Assembly (NCBI GenBank): GCA_022827685.1
Contig: JAJEIH010000129.1
Span: 1-40,370 of the forward strand
Length of the DNA stretch: 40,370 nt
Direction of reading: 5' to 3'
Source of the DNA: Alphaproteobacteria bacterium
GTDB lineage: Bacteria; Pseudomonadota; Alphaproteobacteria; Bin95
Part shown: positions 1,870-32,086 of the stretch, one piece after another
Layout: each line of letters begins with the position of its first letter
How positions within the stretch are numbered: position 1 is the first letter of the stretch
Program-made: the position numbers and the translations under genes
The notes under the pieces: generated by a model
What the model was told of the DNA's origin: nothing
What the model saw: only the letters and a program-made list of their open reading frames with translations
Databases searched by the model: none

Positions 1870-3110
1870 CCGCCGAGATCGTCACCTTTGGCTGCCGCCT
1901 CAATGCCTGGGAGTCGGAGGCGATGCGCCGGCTGACGGCCGGGGCCGGGCTTTCGGACGCCCTGGTCTTCAACACCTGCGCGGTGACGGCGGAGGCCGAG
2001 CGGCAGGCGCGGCAGGCGATCCGCAAGGCCCGGCGCGAACGGCCCGGCGCGCAGATCGTTGTTACCGGCTGCGCCGCGCAGATTGCGCCCGAACGCTGGC
2101 TCGCGATGGAGGAGGTGGACCGGGTCGTCGGCAATGCCGAGAAGCTGACCGCCGAAGCCTGGAAGCCGGACGCGCCGCCGGCGCTGGTGAACGACATCAT
2201 GAGCGTGCGGGAAACCGCTCCGCATCTTCTGGACGGCTTCGGCGGCCGGGCGCGGGCCTTCGTGCAGGTGCAGCAGGGCTGCGACCATCGCTGCACCTTC
2301 TGCATCATCCCCTATGGACGGGGACCCGGCCGCAGCGTGCCGCTCGGCGAGATCGCGGCGCAGACCCGCCGGCTGCTGGAAGCGGGCGCGGCCGAGATCG
2401 TGTTGACCGGCGTGGACATCGCGTCCTGGGGCTCCGACCTGCCGGGTGCCCCCCGGTTGGGGCAGGCGGTCCGGCGCTTGCTGGCGCAGGTCCCGGAGCT
2501 CCGGCGGCTCAGGCTCTCCTCCGTCGATCCCGCCGCCATCGACGATGACCTCCTCCGGCTGCTGGCGGAGGAGCCGCGGCTGATGCCGCATCTGCACCTC
2601 TCGGCGCAGGCGGGCGACGACATGGTGCTGAAGCGGATGAAACGCCGGCACTTGGCGGCCGATGTCGTCTCGCTTTGCGAACGGCTGAAGGCGCTGCGTC
2701 CCGAAATCGCCTTCGGGGCGGACCTGATCGCGGGCTTCCCGACCGAGACCGAGACGATGTTCGCCCGGAGCCTCGAACTGGTGGAAGCCTGTCCGCTCAC
2801 CTGGCTGCATGTCTTCCCCTATTCGCCGCGCCGGGGCACGCCGGCGGCGCGAATGCCGCAAGTGCCGGCGCCGTTGCGCAAGGAACGCGCCCGCCGGCTC
2901 AGAGACACGGGCGAGGCGGCTGCCGGGCGCTTCCTCGAGAGCCGGGTCGGCTGCATGGAGCGCGTCGCCGTCGAGCGCGAAGGCGTCGGACGCACCGAGC
3001 AGTTCGCGCCCGCCGCGCTTCAGGGGGCGGCGCGCCCGGGTTCGGTCCGGAACGCGCGTGTCCGCGGGGTCGAGGCGGGACGGCTGGTCGCGGAAGTGCT
3101 CGCGGCGTGA
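1866..3110 (+). CDS. mtaB: tRNA t6A37 methylthiotransferase MtaB
   Basis: Radical-SAM methylthiotransferase that converts t6A to ms2t6A at position 37 of ANN-decoding tRNAs. The 414-aa protein has the N-terminal methylthiotransferase domain with three iron-sulfur cysteines (Cys10, Cys38, Cys69) and a radical-SAM domain with CxxxCxxC at Cys139, Cys143 and Cys146 followed by IIPYGRGPGRS. A TRAM-like C-terminus follows from about residue 355. The short N-terminus fits MtaB rather than MiaB. Its GTG start overlaps the dapF stop (GTGA), and its own stop overlaps the ftsY GTG in the same way, so all three genes are probably co-translated. Confidence 0.93.
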   Translation: MTAEIVTFGCRLNAWESEAMRRLTAGAGLSDALVFNTCAVTAEAERQARQAIRKARRERPGAQIVVTGCAAQIAPERWLAMEEVDRVVGNAEKLTAEAWKPDAPPALVNDIMSVRETAPHLLDGFGGRARAFVQVQQGCDHRCTFCIIPYGRGPGRSVPLGEIAAQTRRLLEAGAAEIVLTGVDIASWGSDLPGAPRLGQAVRRLLAQVPELRRLRLSSVDPAAIDDDLLRLLAEEPRLMPHLHLSAQAGDDMVLKRMKRRHLAADVVSLCERLKALRPEIAFGADLIAGFPTETETMFARSLELVEACPLTWLHVFPYSPRRGTPAARMPQVPAPLRKERARRLRDTGEAAAGRFLESRVGCMERVAVEREGVGRTEQFAPAALQGAARPGSVRNARVRGVEAGRLVAEVLAA

Positions 3111-4021
3111 ACTGGCTTCAGCGGCTGAGGCAGGGGCTGTCGCGATCCTCCGACCGCCTCGCCGACGGGATTGCGGGCATCTTCTACCGGCGGCGGCTGG
3201 ACGAGGAGGCGCTGGAGGAGCTGGAAGACCTGCTCATCATGGCGGACCTCGGGCCGGCCACAGCCGCGCGGCTCGCCTCCGGCCTTGCGCGCGCGCGCTT
3301 CGGCACGGAGGTCTCCGGCGAGGAGGTGCGCGGGGTGCTGGCCGACGAGATCGCCGGCCTGCTGGAGCCGGTGGCCCGCCCGCTCGTCGCCGATCCGGCG
3401 CGCAAGCCCCATGTCATCCTGGTGGTGGGCGTGAACGGCACCGGCAAGACGACGACCATCGGCAAGCTCGCCCACGCCTTCCGCGCCGAAGGCAAGACCG
3501 TGCTGCTGGCGGCGGGCGACACCTTCCGCGCGGCGGCGGTGGAGCAATTGCAGCTATGGGGGGAGCGGGTCGGTGCGCCGGTCGTCGCGAGGCCGACGGG
3601 GGCGGACGCCGCAGGGCTGGTCTTCGACGCCCACGGGCAGGCGATCCGGGACGGAACCGACATCCTGCTGATCGACACGGCCGGGCGGCTCCACAACAAG
3701 GCCAACCTGATGGACGAGCTTTCCAAGATCACCCGCGTGATCGCCAAGCAGGATGGGGACGCGCCGCACGACACGGTGCTGACGCTCGACGCCACCACCG
3801 GGCAGAACGCGCTGCAACAGGTCCGCGCCTTCCGCGACATGGCCGAGGTGACGGGCCTGATCGTGACCAAGCTCGACGGCTCGGCCAGGGGCGGCGTGGT
3901 CGTGGCGCTGGCCGAGAGTGTCGGCCTGCCGGTCCACGCCGTCGGCGTCGGCGAAGGCGAGGAAGACCTCCGCCCCTTCGCCCCCCGGGATTTCGCCCGC
4001 AGCCTGATGGGGCTGGAGTGA
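3107..4021 (+). CDS. ftsY: Signal recognition particle receptor FtsY
   Basis: SRP-family GTPase that docks ribosome-nascent-chain/SRP complexes at the inner membrane and Sec translocon. The 304-aa product has a short N-terminal amphipathic segment (FtsY of many bacteria carries a long acidic A domain, absent here), the helical N domain (about 30-95) and the G domain. Visible motifs are the P-loop GVNGTGKT (108-115), DTFRAAA (138-144), DTAGR (190-194) and TKLDG (254-258). GTG 3107 was chosen for the four-base overlap with mtaB and because MNWLQRLRQGL is a typical alphaproteobacterial FtsY start; the longer open frame upstream lies inside mtaB. Last gene of the operon. Confidence 0.95.
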   Translation: MNWLQRLRQGLSRSSDRLADGIAGIFYRRRLDEEALEELEDLLIMADLGPATAARLASGLARARFGTEVSGEEVRGVLADEIAGLLEPVARPLVADPARKPHVILVVGVNGTGKTTTIGKLAHAFRAEGKTVLLAAGDTFRAAAVEQLQLWGERVGAPVVARPTGADAAGLVFDAHGQAIRDGTDILLIDTAGRLHNKANLMDELSKITRVIAKQDGDAPHDTVLTLDATTGQNALQQVRAFRDMAEVTGLIVTKLDGSARGGVVVALAESVGLPVHAVGVGEGEEDLRPFAPRDFARSLMGLE

Positions 4022-4485: not shown

Positions 4486-5202
4486 TCACCTTGTCCCCCG
4501 CCCTCCCAAAGCCAGCCGCGCGATGACGCCGCGCAGCGTGCGGACCTCCTGGCCGGTGAGGCCGGCGCGGGCGAAGACGGCGCGGAGATTGCGCTGGACG
4601 GTGGGCTTGAGCTTGGCCTCGCGGTAATAGCCGGCATCGTCGAGCGCGCCGTCGAGATGTTGCCAGAAGCCCTCGAAAGCCTCTGCCGAAGCAAGCTCGC
4701 TCGGCGGTGGCGGGACGGGTGCCGAGCCGGCCATGCGCCACTCCCATGCCACCAGGAACACAGCCTGGGCGAGATTGAGCGAGGGGAAGTCCGGATTGAG
4801 CGGCGCCTCGACTATGCCGGCGGCGAGCCCCACCTCGTCATTGTCGAGGCCGCTGCGCTCCGGGCCGAACAGCACGCCCGTTCGCGCCCCGGAAGCGCGC
4901 AGCAGGCAGGCTGCCTCGCGGGGGCCGCGGACGGGCTTCTCGACATCGCGCCGCCGCGCCGTCGTCGCCAGCACGAGTTGCAGGTCGGCAACCGCTTCCG
5001 CCGCGGTGTCGAAGACGCGCGCATTCCCGATCACGGCGTCCGCGCCGGCCGCTGCCGCTTGCGCCGCCGGGTTCGGCCAGCCGTCGCGCGGGGCGACGAG
5101 CCTGAGTTCGTCCAACCCGCAGTTCAGCATGGCGCGCGCCGCCATGCCGATATTCTCGCCGAGTTGCGGGCGCACCAGCACGATGGCGGGCGGGCGGCTC
5201 AC
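4486..5202 (-). CDS. trmJ: tRNA (cytidine/uridine-2'-O)-methyltransferase TrmJ
   Basis: SPOUT-fold methyltransferase modifying the 2'-OH of tRNA nucleotide 32 with S-adenosylmethionine. The 238-aa product carries the three SPOUT motifs: LVRPQLGENIGMAARA near the N-terminus, VLFGPERSGLDNDE in the middle and NPDFPSLNLAQAV forming the trefoil-knot SAM pocket. Length matches E. coli TrmJ (about 246). Translation starts at GTG (5202-5200), which overlaps the cimA TGA by four bases (GTGA), so trmJ is coupled to cimA on the minus strand. Confidence 0.92.
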   Translation of the reverse strand: MSRPPAIVLVRPQLGENIGMAARAMLNCGLDELRLVAPRDGWPNPAAQAAAAGADAVIGNARVFDTAAEAVADLQLVLATTARRRDVEKPVRGPREAACLLRASGARTGVLFGPERSGLDNDEVGLAAGIVEAPLNPDFPSLNLAQAVFLVAWEWRMAGSAPVPPPPSELASAEAFEGFWQHLDGALDDAGYYREAKLKPTVQRNLRAVFARAGLTGQEVRTLRGVIARLALGGRGTR

Positions 5203-6785
5203 CGTTCGGTGCTGAGCAGCTTGTAGGTCAGGCTGTCGTTCAAGGCCTCGTAGGAGGCATTGATGATGTTCCCGGAGACGCCGACCGTGGTCCAGTGCGC
5301 GCCCGTCTCGTCGGCGCTTTCGATCAGCACCCGCGTGACGGCCGCCGTGCCGTCGCCGGGCGTGAGGATGCGCACCCGGTAGTCGGTGAGCCGCACGCCT
5401 TCGAGGCAGGCATAGTCCGGCAGGAGCGCGAGGCGGAGCGCGGCGTCGAGCGCGTTCACCGGCCCGTTGCCCTCCGCCACCTGCATGGACCGGCGCCCAT
5501 CGACGGAGAGCTTCACCACGGCCTCCGACATGGTCACCAGCTCTCGCCGGGCGTTGAAGCGCCGCTCGTCCGTGACCCGGAAGCTGTCGAGCGACCAGTA
5601 GTCCGGCACGGTCTGGAGCATCCGGCGGGCCAACAGCTCGAAGCTCGCTACCGCGCCGTCATAGGCATAGCCCTGGAACTCACGCTCCTTCACCAGATCG
5701 ACCAGACGCGCAACACGCGGGTCGTCCCGGTCCACATCGAGGCCGATCTCCCGGAAGCGCGAGAGAATGTTCGCGCGGCCCGACTGGTCCGAGACCAGGA
5801 TCTGGCGCTTGTTGCCGACTACCTCCGGCGCGATGTGCTCGTAGAAGGCCGGATCCTTCTCCACCGCCGAGACATGCAGCCCCGCCTTGTGCGCGAACGC
5901 CGAGGCGCCGACATAGGGCGCATGGCGGTTCGACGGGCGGTTGAGCCGCTCGTCGAATGTCCGCGAAATCTGCGTGAGACGCTCCAGCCCGTCCGCCGGA
6001 ACCCCGGTCTCGAAGCCCATCTTGAGGGTAAGCGTCGGCAGCAGCGTCACGAGGTCGGCATTGCCGCAGCGCTCGCCCAGGCCGTTCAGCGTGCCCTGCA
6101 CCTGCCGGGCGCCGGCGCGCACCGCGGTCAGCGTGTTGGCAACGGCATTGCCGGTGTCGTTATGAGCATGGATGCCGAGCCGGCTTCCCGGCACGATGTC
6201 GGCCGCCCGCGCGACCGCCGCCTCGACTTCGTGGGGCAGAGCGCCGCCGTTGGTGTCGCAGAGAACGACCCAGCGCGCGCCGGCTTCCAGCGCCGTCTCC
6301 AGCACCTTGAGCGCATAGTCCGGATTGGCCCTGTAGCCGTCGAAGAAATGCTCGGCGTCGAATAGCGCTTCCTTGTTGCGCCGGACGATCTCCGCGATGG
6401 AATCGCGGATCATCGCCAGGTTCTCGTCAAGCGAAACGCCGAGCGCCGCCTCCGCATGGCGTGCATCGGACTTGCCGACCAGGCAGATCGTATCGACGCG
6501 CGAGCGCAGCGTGACAGCGAGACCCGGATCGTTGGCGGCCGAACGACCTGCGCGGCGCGTCATGCCGAAGGCGGTGAGACGGGCGCGGCAGAGCGCCGGC
6601 GGGTCTGCGAAGAACCTGTCGTCGGTCGGGTTGGCGCCGGGCCAGCCGCCCTCGACATAGTCGATGCCGAGCGCATCGAGGTCGCGTGCGATGGCGGCCT
6701 TGTCCGCGACATTGAAATCGACGCCCTGGGTCTGGGCGCCGTCGCGCAGCGTCGTGTCGAACAGGTAGAGGCGGTTGTCGTTCAT
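5199..6785 (-). CDS. cimA: (R)-citramalate synthase
   Basis: Condenses pyruvate with acetyl-CoA to (R)-citramalate, the threonine-independent entry into isoleucine synthesis. The 528-aa product is the long form of the LeuA/CimA family. The N-terminal TIM barrel starts with LYLFDTTLRDGAQTQG; metal-binding HAHNDTGNAVANT and the HKAGLHVSAVEKDP segment follow; the C-terminal LeuA-dimer regulatory domain extends from about residue 395. The pattern fits citramalate synthase rather than 2-isopropylmalate or homocitrate synthase. ATG 6785 was chosen because homology begins there; the frame opens 26 codons earlier without conserved sequence. First gene of a cimA-trmJ minus-strand pair, divergent from the epimerase gene at 6926. 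Confidence 0.9.
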   Translation of the reverse strand: MNDNRLYLFDTTLRDGAQTQGVDFNVADKAAIARDLDALGIDYVEGGWPGANPTDDRFFADPPALCRARLTAFGMTRRAGRSAANDPGLAVTLRSRVDTICLVGKSDARHAEAALGVSLDENLAMIRDSIAEIVRRNKEALFDAEHFFDGYRANPDYALKVLETALEAGARWVVLCDTNGGALPHEVEAAVARAADIVPGSRLGIHAHNDTGNAVANTLTAVRAGARQVQGTLNGLGERCGNADLVTLLPTLTLKMGFETGVPADGLERLTQISRTFDERLNRPSNRHAPYVGASAFAHKAGLHVSAVEKDPAFYEHIAPEVVGNKRQILVSDQSGRANILSRFREIGLDVDRDDPRVARLVDLVKEREFQGYAYDGAVASFELLARRMLQTVPDYWSLDSFRVTDERRFNARRELVTMSEAVVKLSVDGRRSMQVAEGNGPVNALDAALRLALLPDYACLEGVRLTDYRVRILTPGDGTAAVTRVLIESADETGAHWTTVGVSGNIINASYEALNDSLTYKLLSTER

Positions 6786-29224: not shown

Positions 29225-29597
29225 TCAGGCCGGCCGGAGCACGAAGTCGAAGCGGCCGCGCCACGCGCCAGCGGCGGTCCGGCCGAGGCGCAGCAGCAGC
29301 TCGTCCCTAAAGATGGAATCGCGGGCGTTAGCAGCCTTGAGATCGGGAAAGTAGACCTGCGTGGTGAGCGGGCGCGTCCCCTCGCCCTGCAGCTTCACAT
29401 GGATATGCGGCGTGCGGCCCGTATAGCGGCCTGGCCGGATCGTCAGGAAGCGGAATGCGCCGGCCGCGTCGGTAAACTGGTGGCCGCGATAGCGGAAGCC
29501 CTGGTTGTCGTAACGCCCGCGCTCGTCGCTGTGCCATATGTCGATGACGGCGCCGGATACGGGCCGGCAGTCCGGCGTGAGCAGGAGGCCTTCGAAG
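29225..29597 (-). pseudogene. Intradiol ring-cleavage dioxygenase, C-terminal fragment (gene split by the 29598-31803 element)
   Basis: The minus-strand frame ending at TGA 29227-29225 encodes FEGLLLTPDCRPVSGAVIDI, then WHSDERGRYDNQGFRYRG, then PGRYTGRTPHIHVKL, then GRFDFVLRPA. This is the catalytic part of a protocatechuate/catechol-type intradiol dioxygenase, with the two tyrosine and two histidine iron ligands (GRY, PGRY, HIH) intact. The frame is cut at 29597 by the left end of the insertion element. The N-terminal part lies at 31804-32086. Joining the two across one 8-bp target duplication restores an uninterrupted reading frame, so the gene was intact before the insertion. Confidence 0.9.
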
Positions 29598-29609
29598 GGG
29601 GATTATATC
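29590..29609. repeat. Left target duplication and left terminal repeat of the IS1595-like element
   Basis: CTTCGAAG (29590-29597) is the target duplication, itself palindromic, and recurs exactly at 31804-31811. The element begins with GGGGATTATATC (29598-29609), which matches the complement of the right end (GGCAATTATATC) at 10 of 12 positions. Confidence 0.85.
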
Positions 29610-29614
29610 TGATA

Positions 29615-29749
29615 TTAGGCATCTGCCTGTTCCTCGGGCGGCGGCTCTTTCGGCTTCTTCGGCTTGCGCAGTGCGAGGGCGAGCTTCTCCGGCGTGGCGC
29701 CTTTGAAGCGCGGATCGACCGGGATCGGCGGGGGTTTCTCGTCCGTCAT
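29615..29749 (-). CDS. 44-aa proline/lysine-rich element-encoded protein
   Basis: Small protein too short for most gene finders: MTDEKPPPIPVDPRFKGATP followed by a Lys/Pro/Glu-rich tail. Its ATG (29749) overlaps the stop of the 94-aa gene (ATGA), like every other junction in the element, and its TAA lies only 17 bp from the element end. I do not recognise a named family; the P-R-F-K-G-A-T-P-E motif is similar to short proteins I associate with phage-like loci, without assigned function. Coding status is supported by the coupling and by the tight fit in the element. Confidence 0.6.
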   Translation of the reverse strand: MTDEKPPPIPVDPRFKGATPEKLALALRKPKKPKEPPPEEQADA

Positions 29750-30030
29750 GCGTCCAGCCTTTCATCGATGGATTTCACCCGGCGGCGCGCTGCCGCCAGC
29801 TCGCTGACCATGCTGCGCAGGTCTGCCGCTGATGGATATTCTGCCGTTTCGAATTCGCGGGTTTGCGCGTTCTCTTCTCCCGACGCCCCGCATCGGGCAA
29901 TGCCGGAGGCGGTCTGAAGCATTTTCTCGGCGGCCTCCAGCCGCTCCCGCAGGCAGGCTATCGTCAAGCGCAGGGCGCGCCGCTCCCGCACCATGCCGGC
30001 CAGCACGGCGTCCTGTTCTTCCTCGGTCAT
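29746..30030 (-). CDS. 94-aa coiled-coil element-encoded protein, paralogue of the 91-aa protein
   Basis: Hypothetical protein starting MTEEEQDAVLAGMVRERRAL with a long Arg/Glu/Leu-rich helix (residues 1-45), a polar central loop and a second helix (about 68-94), as expected of a helical hairpin. It resembles the product of the preceding gene in length, the MT-x-EEE start, the segment CLRERL (CLRNRL in the other) and the two-helix layout, so the pair probably arose by duplication. Both ends overlap neighbouring genes by ATGA. No catalytic residues are apparent; an accessory role in transposition, regulation or host defence is open. Confidence 0.65.
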   Translation of the reverse strand: MTEEEQDAVLAGMVRERRALRLTIACLRERLEAAEKMLQTASGIARCGASGEENAQTREFETAEYPSAADLRSMVSELAAARRRVKSIDERLDA

Positions 30031-30302
30031 GAGCGCGCTCCGGTATCGGTGAGACCGGCGAGCATTGCCTTCAACTCTTTCCGGCGGGTGACAGCTTCCC
30101 GGACCTCGGCGAATAGCCCGGAGAACTCTTCCGGCACGTCTTCCGGGTTCGAGGCTGGATGGTCATCGAGCAGCAGAACAGCGTCCGATACCTGCCGGGA
30201 CAAGCGGGACAGTCGGTTCCGCAGACAGATGCAGTGCCGGTCGATTTCCTGAAGCTCGACGACCATGCGGCCGATCTCGGTGAATTCCTCTTCCTTGGTC
30301 AT
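30027..30302 (-). CDS. 91-aa coiled-coil element-encoded protein
   Basis: Hypothetical protein beginning MTKEEEFTEIGRMVVELQEI with two helical segments (about 1-48 and 62-85) joined by an acidic loop. It shares with the next gene the start, the CLRxRL motif and the overall layout. Its ATG (30302) overlaps the transposase stop by four bases. The open frame continues upstream inside the transposase gene, but the ATGA overlap and the paralogue's start fix the ATG. Two cysteines (CIC in the first helix) could bind metal or form a disulfide; function unknown. Confidence 0.65.
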   Translation of the reverse strand: MTKEEEFTEIGRMVVELQEIDRHCICLRNRLSRLSRQVSDAVLLLDDHPASNPEDVPEEFSGLFAEVREAVTRRKELKAMLAGLTDTGARS

Positions 30303-31276
30303 GAGCGCGCTCCCGACGGCAGTCCGTTGTCCGCGATAAGGTCCCGATAGCGGAGCCGCCGCCCCGACAGGGCCAGCACCATCAGCGTCATCTGGGCCAG
30401 CGTGTCCGCGTTGCGGATGTTGTGTTTGCCCGCGAACTCCTGGACGTAGCGGTTCAGGTGCTTCGGGCTGATCTTGTGGAAGGTCCCCTTGTGGGCGCGC
30501 TTGAACATCGACCACAGGGCTTCCATGCCCTGAATATGGACTTCGCCCCGGACATACTCGCTGGCCGAGTGATTGACGGTCTCGTGGTCGAAATCGCGGC
30601 CCAGCCCGACATAGGCCGCTGCCTCGTCGGTGTAGAGCGTCGCGCCGGGTTCGGCATGGTCCCGGACGAAGCCTTGCAGCGTCGCCGCGTCGGTCCGCTC
30701 GATGGCGCGGGCCGCGACCTGGCCGGTGTCCCGGTCCTTGACACCGACGACCGGCGTCATGTCCACGGCGCCGCGGCCTTCCAGCTCCTTGCGCTTCTTC
30801 CAAGGCTTGTTGGCACGGCGGCCGCCTACATAGGTCTCGTCGGCTTCGACCGGCCCGCCGAGCAGCGAGCCGTCGCCGTTCTCCGCCCACGCTTCCCGGA
30901 GGCGGTGCAGCATGAACCATGCCGCCTTCTGCCCGATTTTCAGGTCCCGGTGCAGCTTCATGCTGGAGACCGATTTCAGGCTCGTCAGGCAGAGGTAGAT
31001 GCCGATGGCCCACTTCCGCAGCGGGAGGTTCGAGCCCTCCATCACCGTGCCGGTCTTGACGCTGAAATACTTCCGGCAGTCCGAGCACCAGTGCGGCATC
31101 GGCTTGCCGGAGGCGACGGGGCGAACGCGCGCCCCGCCACAGTGCCCGCAGCGCACCCCGTCAGGCCAGTAGATGGCCTCGAACCACTCCCGCGCCGCGT
31201 CCTCGGTCGGGAACAGGTCCATCAACTCGACGATGGAGATACCCGCCCGGAACGCCTTGCCCGGCGCTTTCGTCAT
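30299..31276 (-). CDS. IS1595-family transposase
   Basis: 325-aa DDE transposase. The N-terminal zinc ribbon has cysteines 43, 46, 64 and 67 (RCGHCGG, HWCSDCRKYF). The catalytic domain contains EADETYVGG (Asp146), LYTDEAAAY (Asp217) and HIQGMEALWSMFKRAHKGTFHKIS. IS1595 transposases usually have H-x-N in this last motif; here Gln249 replaces the asparagine, while Glu252 and Lys259 are kept. The C-terminus ends RDLIADNGLPSGARS, common in this group. The gene is intact, and its ATG overlaps the preceding GIY-YIG-like gene. Activity is supported by the fresh-looking insertion, though the substitution raises doubt. Confidence 0.92.
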   Translation of the reverse strand: MTKAPGKAFRAGISIVELMDLFPTEDAAREWFEAIYWPDGVRCGHCGGARVRPVASGKPMPHWCSDCRKYFSVKTGTVMEGSNLPLRKWAIGIYLCLTSLKSVSSMKLHRDLKIGQKAAWFMLHRLREAWAENGDGSLLGGPVEADETYVGGRRANKPWKKRKELEGRGAVDMTPVVGVKDRDTGQVAARAIERTDAATLQGFVRDHAEPGATLYTDEAAAYVGLGRDFDHETVNHSASEYVRGEVHIQGMEALWSMFKRAHKGTFHKISPKHLNRYVQEFAGKHNIRNADTLAQMTLMVLALSGRRLRYRDLIADNGLPSGARS

Positions 31277-31704
31277 TCCTCGTCCTCCTCATCCTGATCC
31301 GTCTCGGCGGCAGCTTCGACAGAGGCTCGCAACTCCTCCCAGCTTGGAAGGTCAGGGGCCTTGATGCGGGCGAAGAACAGGTCGCCTTGCCGGACCAGCT
31401 CGTTGATGTCTTCGACCTCCCATTGCTCGCGGTCGCCGACCCGGGGAGCCGGGAAGGTCATCCACTCGCTGGCGGGAGCCTCGAAGATGGTCCAGGACGG
31501 CCACGCCTTGATGATCTCGGCGCTCGCCATCCATGTCCGGGCGGACTTGAGCCGGTCTTTCAGGTAGTGGGCCGGATCGTGCTCAAGGAACCGCTTGGGG
31601 TCCTTCACGGGGCCAACGCCCGCCCATCCGATTTTGACAAGGTTCAGGTCCGGGTGGAGCTTGATCGCGTAGATGTAGCCGGGCTGCCTCTGTGCTGGCG
31701 GCAT
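31273..31704 (-). CDS. GIY-YIG/T5orf172-like protein, first gene of the element
   Basis: 143-aa protein. Near the N-terminus GYIYAIKLHPDLNLVKIGWA matches the paired beta strands (G-Y-I-Y ... K-I-G) of the GIY-YIG nuclease superfamily, T5orf172/MUG113 branch, followed by RLKSART where the catalytic Arg usually lies. The C-terminus is an acidic tail. I chose ATG 31704 because GGAGG lies five bases upstream and homology begins at once; the frame extends to TTG 31785, but that TTG coincides with a consensus -35 TTGACA. The terminal ATGA overlaps the transposase. A nuclease could process DNA ends or act on host DNA; its active-site glutamate is not obvious, so activity is uncertain. Confidence 0.6.
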   Translation of the reverse strand: MPPAQRQPGYIYAIKLHPDLNLVKIGWAGVGPVKDPKRFLEHDPAHYLKDRLKSARTWMASAEIIKAWPSWTIFEAPASEWMTFPAPRVGDREQWEVEDINELVRQGDLFFARIKAPDLPSWEELRASVEAAAETDQDEEDEE

Positions 31705-31755
31705 GACATCCTCCATCTGATCGCGGCGGATTTCAGCCTCTCGGCGCTTCTCGTT

Positions 31756-31785
31756 ATCCTGAAGCTCCTGCTCGGCCGCTGTCAA
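31756..31785 (-). promoter_or_regulatory. Putative promoter of the element operon
   Basis: On the minus strand TTGACA (31785-31780) is followed after 18 bp by CAGGAT (31761-31756). The -35 is perfect and the -10 weak. It begins 18 bp inside the element end, and would produce a transcript starting before ATG 31704. Confidence 0.45.
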
Positions 31786-31791
31786 GGATGG

Positions 31792-31811
31792 GATATAATT
31801 GCCCTTCGAAG
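31792..31811. repeat. Right terminal repeat and right target duplication of the IS1595-like element
   Basis: GATATAATTGCC (31792-31803) is the inverted copy of the left end with two mismatches. CTTCGAAG (31804-31811) repeats the left flank exactly. Confidence 0.85.
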
Positions 31812-32086
31812 ATCAGCAAATCTCCGTGTGCGCCGGACTCTCGAAGATCGACGCGGCGCGGCGTTGACCGCGTATAGAACGGCCCCGCCGTCTGCGGGCG
31901 TGTACCGGGGGTGCAATTCAGAAGCGGTACAAGCCCGAACCCGCGATCCGCAACCGCGCCGGCAGGGACATATCCCAGAAGCGTCGAACGCGCAGACGCC
32001 AGCAGCGGCATCGCCGCCGCGCCCGCCAGCCCGGTCAGCACCGACCGCCTCATCGCCCTGTGCAACATTATGCGAGGGTAGCCCAT
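31804..32086 (-). pseudogene. Intradiol ring-cleavage dioxygenase, N-terminal fragment
   Basis: Minus-strand frame from ATG 32086 (or ATG 32053, giving MRRSVLTGLAGAAAMPLLAS) to the element end. The N-terminus looks like a secretion signal with paired arginines; then CTPGTRPQTAGPFYTR, the conserved T-x-GPFY segment that opens intradiol dioxygenases, and GAHGDLLIFEG, where the insertion interrupts it. The rest is at 29225-29597. A possible exported or membrane-anchored catechol/protocatechuate-type dioxygenase before disruption. It follows the liv operon but is separated from it by a strong terminator. Confidence 0.85.

Follow-up and report, generated by a model that had tools for sequence, protein, structure and literature searches.

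What do two adjacent genes for small two-helix proteins do between a transposase gene and the end of a mobile element? The question arises in the window (the whole stretch of DNA analyzed, 40,370 nucleotides), for which an earlier note, made from the sequence alone, had described a tandem pair of paralogous proteins co-translated with a transposase and had suggested that they form a heterodimer serving as a transposition regulator, a target selector, or an anti-host or anti-defense factor. Our analyses point to passenger cargo of an IS1595-family element, a reading to which we give an even chance.

Both open reading frames (ORFs) lie on the minus strand where they had been described (Table 1), and the statement that the pair sits inside an element, laid out for co-translation with the transposase, was borne out. 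The element spans positions 29598-31803, has inverted ends and an 8-bp target repeat, and is a string of five same-strand genes (P0004, the transposase, P0002, P0001, and P0005) in which 4-nt overlaps (ATGA) join the transposase to P0002 and P0002 to P0001; a 4-nt overlap is also found between P0004 and the transposase. The transposase scored above cutoff against DDE_Tnp_IS1595 (PF12762, E 2.7e-41) and Zn_ribbon_IS1595 (PF12760, E 3.1e-7) in Pfam and against NF033547 (E 1e-55) in NCBIfam. When the flanks were joined over one copy of CTTCGAAG, the resulting empty site was a single open frame matching Dioxygenase_C (PF00775, 5.2e-18), so the element interrupts an intradiol dioxygenase-like gene. 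The scripted end search scored a 7-of-8 chance pair level with the 8-of-8 pair in the window; the latter was chosen because it agrees with this empty site and with the end motif of other elements. The window ends start with GG, as IS1595 ends do (for the 19 other bounded elements considered below, a GG start was a condition of the search), and a TTA stretch recurs at the same place in other elements. Searches with P0004 against Pfam, NCBIfam, PHROGs, PDB sequences, plasmids, and the other loci compared found nothing; a GIY-YIG-like identity was not supported (hhalign, 1.6% against a GIY-YIG cargo pair; no Pfam match).

Table 1. Features of the element in the window and of the gene that it interrupts
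Feature	Position	Strand	Basis
Intradiol dioxygenase gene, interrupted, 3' part	29225..29597	-	Dioxygenase_C match of the empty site
8-bp target-site duplication CTTCGAAG, left copy	29590..29597	.	Direct repeat
Left terminal inverted repeat GGGGATTATATC	29598..29609	+	Sequence
P0005, terminal "tail" protein (44 aa), final gene in the element	29615..29749	-	ORF; weak tail-profile match
P0001, 94-aa two-helix protein, A-type	29746..30030	-	ORF, AlphaFold2, tree
52-nt repeat, P0002/P0001 junction	29990..30041	-	77% to partner repeat
P0002, 91-aa two-helix protein, B-type	30027..30302	-	ORF, AlphaFold2, tree
Partner 52-nt repeat, transposase/P0002 junction	30262..30313	-	77% identity
IS1595-family transposase, 325 aa, zinc ribbon and DDE domain	30299..31276	-	Pfam, NCBIfam
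P0004, 170 aa, TTG start, function unassigned, upstream of the transposase	31273..31785	-	ORF
Right terminal inverted repeat GGCAATTATATC	31792..31803	-	Sequence
8-bp target-site duplication CTTCGAAG, right copy	31804..31811	.	Direct repeat
Intradiol dioxygenase gene, interrupted, 5' part	31812..32086	-	Dioxygenase_C match of the empty site

BLASTP, shuffling, and profile-profile comparison all support the paralogy of P0001 and P0002. BLASTP aligned the two at E 0.001 over 31 residues, and their Smith-Waterman score of 52 was reached by 2 of 2000 shuffles of P0002 (reversed sequence, 29). A profile alignment showing no relation had been named beforehand as an outcome that would count against paralogy; with four sequences per side (P0001, P0006, P0010, and P0011 against P0002, P0007, P0008, and P0009), hhalign related the two types at 96.0% (E 4e-9) over 46 N-terminal columns, the match being weak (33.8%, E 4.3e-4) with two-sequence profiles per side. 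Two of the four A-to-B cross pairs, P0007 against P0001 and against P0006, did not stand out clearly from shuffles (252 and 216 of 2000), and the likeness of P0001 and P0002 lies in the first helix. The CLRxRL motif attributed to both proteins was found (CLRNRL and CLRERL), whereas the start that they share is MT-x-EE (MTKEEE and MTEEEQ) and not MT-x-EEE. At the DNA level, the 52-nt repeat spans the starts of both genes, and both junctions, transposase/P0002 and P0002/P0001, contain the same 17 nucleotides at the start codon (GGAGCGCGCTCATGACC, 17 of 17 identical); the C terminus of P0002 (TGARS) resembles the end of the transposase (SGARS), and the orthologue P0007 lacks that tail. We infer that the junction was copied while the genes of the window element were being assembled.

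AlphaFold2, run on two-sequence alignments, predicted a two-helix hairpin for both proteins, in line with the two charged helices around a loop that had been read from the sequence: helices at residues 3-49 and 68-93 for P0001 (mean pLDDT 88.5, pTM 0.71) and at residues 3-47 and 58-90 for P0002 (mean pLDDT 80.9, pTM 0.60). The prediction was less sure in the loops of both proteins and at the C-terminal end of P0002; no stretch of either fell under a pLDDT of 50, and the disorder that the earlier note had set as a refuting outcome was thus not predicted. Foldseek returned nothing at E <= 0.001 for P0001 against the PDB or for P0002 against BFVD, and VIA-align Z scores for P0001, which reached 9.4 with many unrelated helical hairpins, stay under the tool's telling level for helical folds. 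The only structures to stand out in the PDB, designed single-chain antiparallel coiled coils found by profile search (9r1o, E 3.1e-6; 8qad, 0.033) and by Foldseek with P0001 (9rgz, E 0.09), show the same hairpin heptad pattern as the window pair; these are designed proteins, and hence no kinship is read from the likeness. The match to 9r1o was accordingly rejected as one of pattern only.

A second genome of the same genus (G366, contig C187; L029/L034/L037) carries an IS1595 transposase followed by a 60-aa ORF, an orthologue of P0001 (59% identity), and then an orthologue of P0002 (41% identity), the order being A then B where the window has B then A. In a tree of 12 family members, the A proteins of the two genomes grouped at 99/98 and the B proteins at 85/86, with most deeper forks weak. 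Because both paralogues have orthologues there in swapped order, the duplication is older than the split of the two elements, with both copies retained since; and because the base differences between the two genomes are most frequent at third codon positions in both genes (27/28/54 by codon position over the 94 codons of A, 37/30/55 over the 85 codons of B), both copies look kept by selection. The ends of the G366 element were assigned by eye from motif matches, and the scripted end test found no 8-bp target repeat at L034; a terminal small protein at 6153-6326 (E 1.8e-4), of the kind described below, lies just inside the right end (6362), which supports the placement of the swapped pair within an element. 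A convergent 201-aa gene (5198-5803, minus strand) follows the pair inside these ends; it has no Pfam or NCBIfam match, and it contains a nuclease-like E-V-K stretch. The G366 element starts within an ORF (2427-3203) that matches N6 methyltransferases (tblastn, 36%), and it seems from this match to interrupt a methyltransferase gene.

The two-helix family comprised 12 members at nine loci, and all of the genomes that carry them belong to the window's class. Members were found at six IS1595 transposases, as pairs after the transposase at three loci, as singles before it at two, and as a single after it at one. At L100 (G279:C16), the tandem pair P0008 and P0009 directly follows the transposase, each with a 4-nt overlap, and is itself followed by a methyltransferase-like gene and an XcyI-like restriction enzyme gene (RE_XcyI, 4.2e-13). 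P0010 (L098, G075) and P0011 (L091, G364) are the single members before the transposase, and the single member of L144 lies ~260 nt after an IS1595 transposase of only 38% identity. P0012, P0013, and P0014 (L134, L135, and L136) are in stretches that, as far as read, have no IS1595 transposase; a single gene separates P0014 from an N6 methyltransferase-HNH gene downstream of it. Outside close pairs, members are 18-30% identical to the first sequence, and P0001, P0010, P0011, and P0013 share an aromatic-P-S/T stretch preceding the second helix (YPSAADL, WPSFEDI, WPSFEDI, and FPTREEA). The family diverges fast and is not tied to one transposase. L098, L091, and L100 were fetched for their transposase and are therefore uninformative about how closely the family adheres to IS1595; of the five loci first found without IS1595 context (G366, L134, L135, L136, and L144), two lie at an IS1595 transposase.

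Genome sampling gave matches in 6 of 385 genomes of the class at E 2.8e-10 or better, in 2 of 14 genomes of the order (P0001 matches), and in 1 of 398 genomes of the phylum at E 1e-4, namely, the window's own; the orders of G124 (1 of 3 genomes) and G075 (2 of 28) returned loci that were already known, and a scan of genome contigs with P0001-type patterns only gave a single locus, L037. We did not count G395 (1.8e-7, one internal stop) in the family because it is doubtful. Several candidates were rejected. In 10 other genomes of the class, weaker matches (E 1.6e-4 to 0.01) and, in G366, a third match landed in ORFs of 284-525 aa; we regard these as chance coiled coils, and likewise four weak matches of P0002 (E 0.004-0.009) to ORFs of 332-572 aa. 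A two-helix-like ORF after the transposase of L096 (3586-3930, minus strand) matched none of the family profiles tried and was not counted. Searches of plasmids by tblastn gave weak partial matches only for P0001, P0002, and P0010 and none for P0011; phages gave none with P0002 (tblastn), and viral contigs gave none with either two-sequence alignment. Of 397 plasmid records that contain an IS1595 transposase, two were read, those of Methylocystis rosea and Rhodobacteraceae SC52; family matches in them were no better than E 0.032, and the tail protein was absent. By sequence searches, the family is without a name in Pfam, PHROGs, and PADLOC, and in NCBIfam for the window proteins: the 11 members scanned had no significant match in Pfam (best E 0.0043, to DUF7307, in one member) or PHROGs (best 0.016), the best Pfam match of the L144 member was LZ_Tnp_IS481 (0.052), and P0001 and P0002 had none of significance in NCBIfam (best 0.024). 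Among the papers listed by literature searches on IS1595, passenger genes, and methyltransferase or restriction cargo, we recognized none that describes this pair.

To place the pair among related elements, 48 transposase loci were read with their flanks, and 32 of them were tested by script for ends. Twenty of the 32 had both ends and an 8-of-8 target repeat (the window, L022, L023, L025, L055, L059, L088, L093, L094, L096, L097, L098, L099, L100, L101, L103, L107, L108, L109, and L110). Two-helix genes occur in three of these bounded elements (the window, L098, and L100), a small number in which the window itself is counted. The family was found at 6 of the 48 transposase loci, or at 3 of 45 (L091, L098, and L100) when the window, L034, and L144 are left aside because their transposase was not the sole ground for choosing them; it may have been missed at several of the 45 because of contig-end cuts or partial transposases. 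Methyltransferase-like genes are present in 12 of the 20 bounded elements, 11 of these being among the 17 without the family. Those of L023, L025, L059, L097, L099, and L103 pass the Pfam cutoff, those of L093, L094, L107, and L108 match methyltransferase genes by tblastn at 43-73% identity, and L022 and L100 have sub-cutoff matches only; none was found in the window element. A C5 methyltransferase occurs with a GIY-YIG gene in L094 and in L021 (ends not found), and an N6 methyltransferase is joined to an HNH domain in genes of L023, L025, and L136. In G300, four transposase copies of equal score belong to near-identical elements of about 2.9 kb. Among the loci, about 2870-2910 of the 3936 bases read around each copy agree, and none of these stretches has a family match; the multiplication of this element argues that transposition proceeds without the pair. 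As a group, these elements look like 2- to 4-kb transposons with a slot after the transposase in which methyltransferases, restriction systems, or unknown genes are interchangeable.

The window's own genome (G000) holds further IS1595 elements, with transposases about 56-60% identical. After the transposase, these carry a C5 methyltransferase and a GIY-YIG gene on C23 (L021), an N6 methyltransferase fused to HNH on C46 (L023) and C165 (L025), and, on C12 (L022), a gene whose methyltransferase match is only weak. An unnamed protein of 126-147 aa with a start like "NWVKARAACT" directly follows the transposase in L056, L091, L093, L098, L101, and L107 and sometimes precedes a methyltransferase; the L098 protein matched L056, L093, L107, and a stretch of L025 by tblastn, and L091 and L101 were assigned by eye. 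At L058, genes for a DUF1902 protein and a HicA-like toxin (8.2e-9) follow an IS1595 transposase (3408-3899); they may lie outside the element, the ends of which were not found.

A second small protein recurs in these elements. This tail protein, of about 44-73 aa with the pattern "TPEE.ARA.L.PV", lies near the element end whatever the cargo and was also seen in L102 and L106. By profile it was found in 13 of the 20 bounded elements (L022, L023, L025, L088, L093, L094, L098, L100, L101, L103, L107, L108, and L109), 10 of which built the profile; L088 (9e-4), L108, and L109 were not used in building it, and in L088 and L109 the gene is on the strand opposite to the transposase. P0005 of the window weakly matched a profile of 13 tail proteins (9.1 bits, i-E 9e-5 in a one-sequence search). 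As a conserved accessory of transposition, the tail protein is a more likely candidate than the pair.

Passenger cargo is the best reading of the pair because the family is patchy and fast-diverging, occurs beside two transposase lineages and also standalone, and is missing from most clearly transposed elements. The pair looks dispensable for transposition when elements are compared by gene content, being absent from 17 of the 20 bounded relatives and from the four G300 copies. It lies in the slot after the transposase that is often filled, in related elements, by DNA methyltransferases and restriction enzymes, and this company points to host conflict. The retention of order-swapped paralogues with the same predicted hairpin suggests a heteromeric bundle, and the pair is probably a heteromeric coiled-coil adaptor: the two hairpins would pack by their helix faces into a heteromeric four-helix bundle, which might bind a protein of the host or of a rival and might work in the host-conflict niche of the other cargo, in defense, counter-defense, or stabilization, while the transposase would carry out the cutting and joining of transposition with the pair uninvolved. 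Since single members exist (L098, L091, and L144), a partner paralogue is not always needed. The proposed role as an anti-host or anti-defense factor fits this company of cargo, but none of the 11 members scanned matched the PADLOC anti-phage defense models.

The position of the genes speaks against cargo, since members directly adjoin the transposase at four loci (the window, L100, L098, and L091), on its 5' side in L098 and L091, as would suit a transposase regulator. The hairpins might then bind the transposase and tune its activity or its choice of target, the pair having arisen from a duplicated homodimeric regulator; the tight coupling (the genes overlap by 4 nt in the window, L100, and L098 and are 2 nt apart in L091) keeps such a modulator in consideration as a tentative and rather unlikely alternative. 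It would also accommodate the occurrence of the family beside two transposase lineages of 38% identity and the share of loci found without IS1595 context that nevertheless lie at such a transposase (two of five). Against it, the family is missing from 17 of the 20 bounded elements, G300 contains four near-identical copies that moved without it, overlaps of this kind with the stop of the transposase gene are also seen for unrelated cargo, and the tail protein is the better candidate for an accessory. The suggestions of a transposition regulator or target selector are weakened accordingly: the family occurs in so few bounded elements, and overlaps of this kind are not special to it. A bolder combination, in which the pair would be a heteromeric switch in IS1595 elements that carry restriction or methylation genes, translated in lockstep with the transposase and gating either the transposase or host defense, so that a two-kb element would have a regulatory or counter-defense layer of its own, is in our judgment unlikely.

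The company of restriction and methylation genes admits another explanation, namely, that the pair is an accessory or control protein of restriction-modification cargo, left behind where the enzymes were lost. At L100 the pair lies between the transposase and the methyltransferase-like and XcyI-like genes, the L136 member is upstream of its N6 methyltransferase-HNH gene with one gene between, and the L091 member shares its stretch with such a methyltransferase. Most methyltransferase loci, however, have no two-helix gene; the elements of the window and L098 have the family with no such enzyme found, L144 has none, and the methyltransferase of L034 is present only as an interrupted gene outside the element ends. 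We consider this explanation improbable. Still less probable is an RNA-binding bundle like Rop that controls translation or an antisense RNA of the transposase. Rop/Rom of ColE1, like P0001 and P0002, is a small two-helix subunit, the dimer of which is a four-helix bundle, and hairpins of about 90 aa would suit such a role; Rop, however, is a homodimer and shorter than the window proteins, the Rop family is absent from the Pfam matches of the 11 members (E <= 1), and the two-helix proteins have pI values of 4.8 to 5.8. That the two genes are a nonfunctional chance pair of coiled-coil ORFs can practically be set aside, given orthologues of both in another genome, their codon-position bias, and the recurrence of the family at nine loci, even though the sequences are charged and helical and helix-like sequences yield many weak profile matches.

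For the cargo reading, the family matters in two respects. Kept as both duplicates with their order swapped, and found at six IS1595 transposase loci, it provides a defined passenger in place of a "hypothetical protein"; and elements of 2 to 4 kb with interchangeable cargo imply that host-conflict genes can travel on very small mobile units.

The element in the window is an IS1595-family member carrying passengers. The account of the family in PMC8101967 gives it inverted ends, an 8-bp target repeat, and usually a single transposase gene. The window element resembles this description in its DDE_Tnp_IS1595 and zinc ribbon domains, its GG-starting inverted ends, and its 8-bp target repeat, and differs in having five same-strand ORFs instead of one transposase gene; as that account says "usually," the five ORFs mark a passenger-carrying variant and not a nonmember. 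Insertion sequences with passenger genes are termed tIS in PMC7986276, and the window element is like them in holding, between its ends, extra genes without a known role in transposition. Within tIS, and from a family not named in the libraries searched, its passenger is a paralogous coiled-coil pair.
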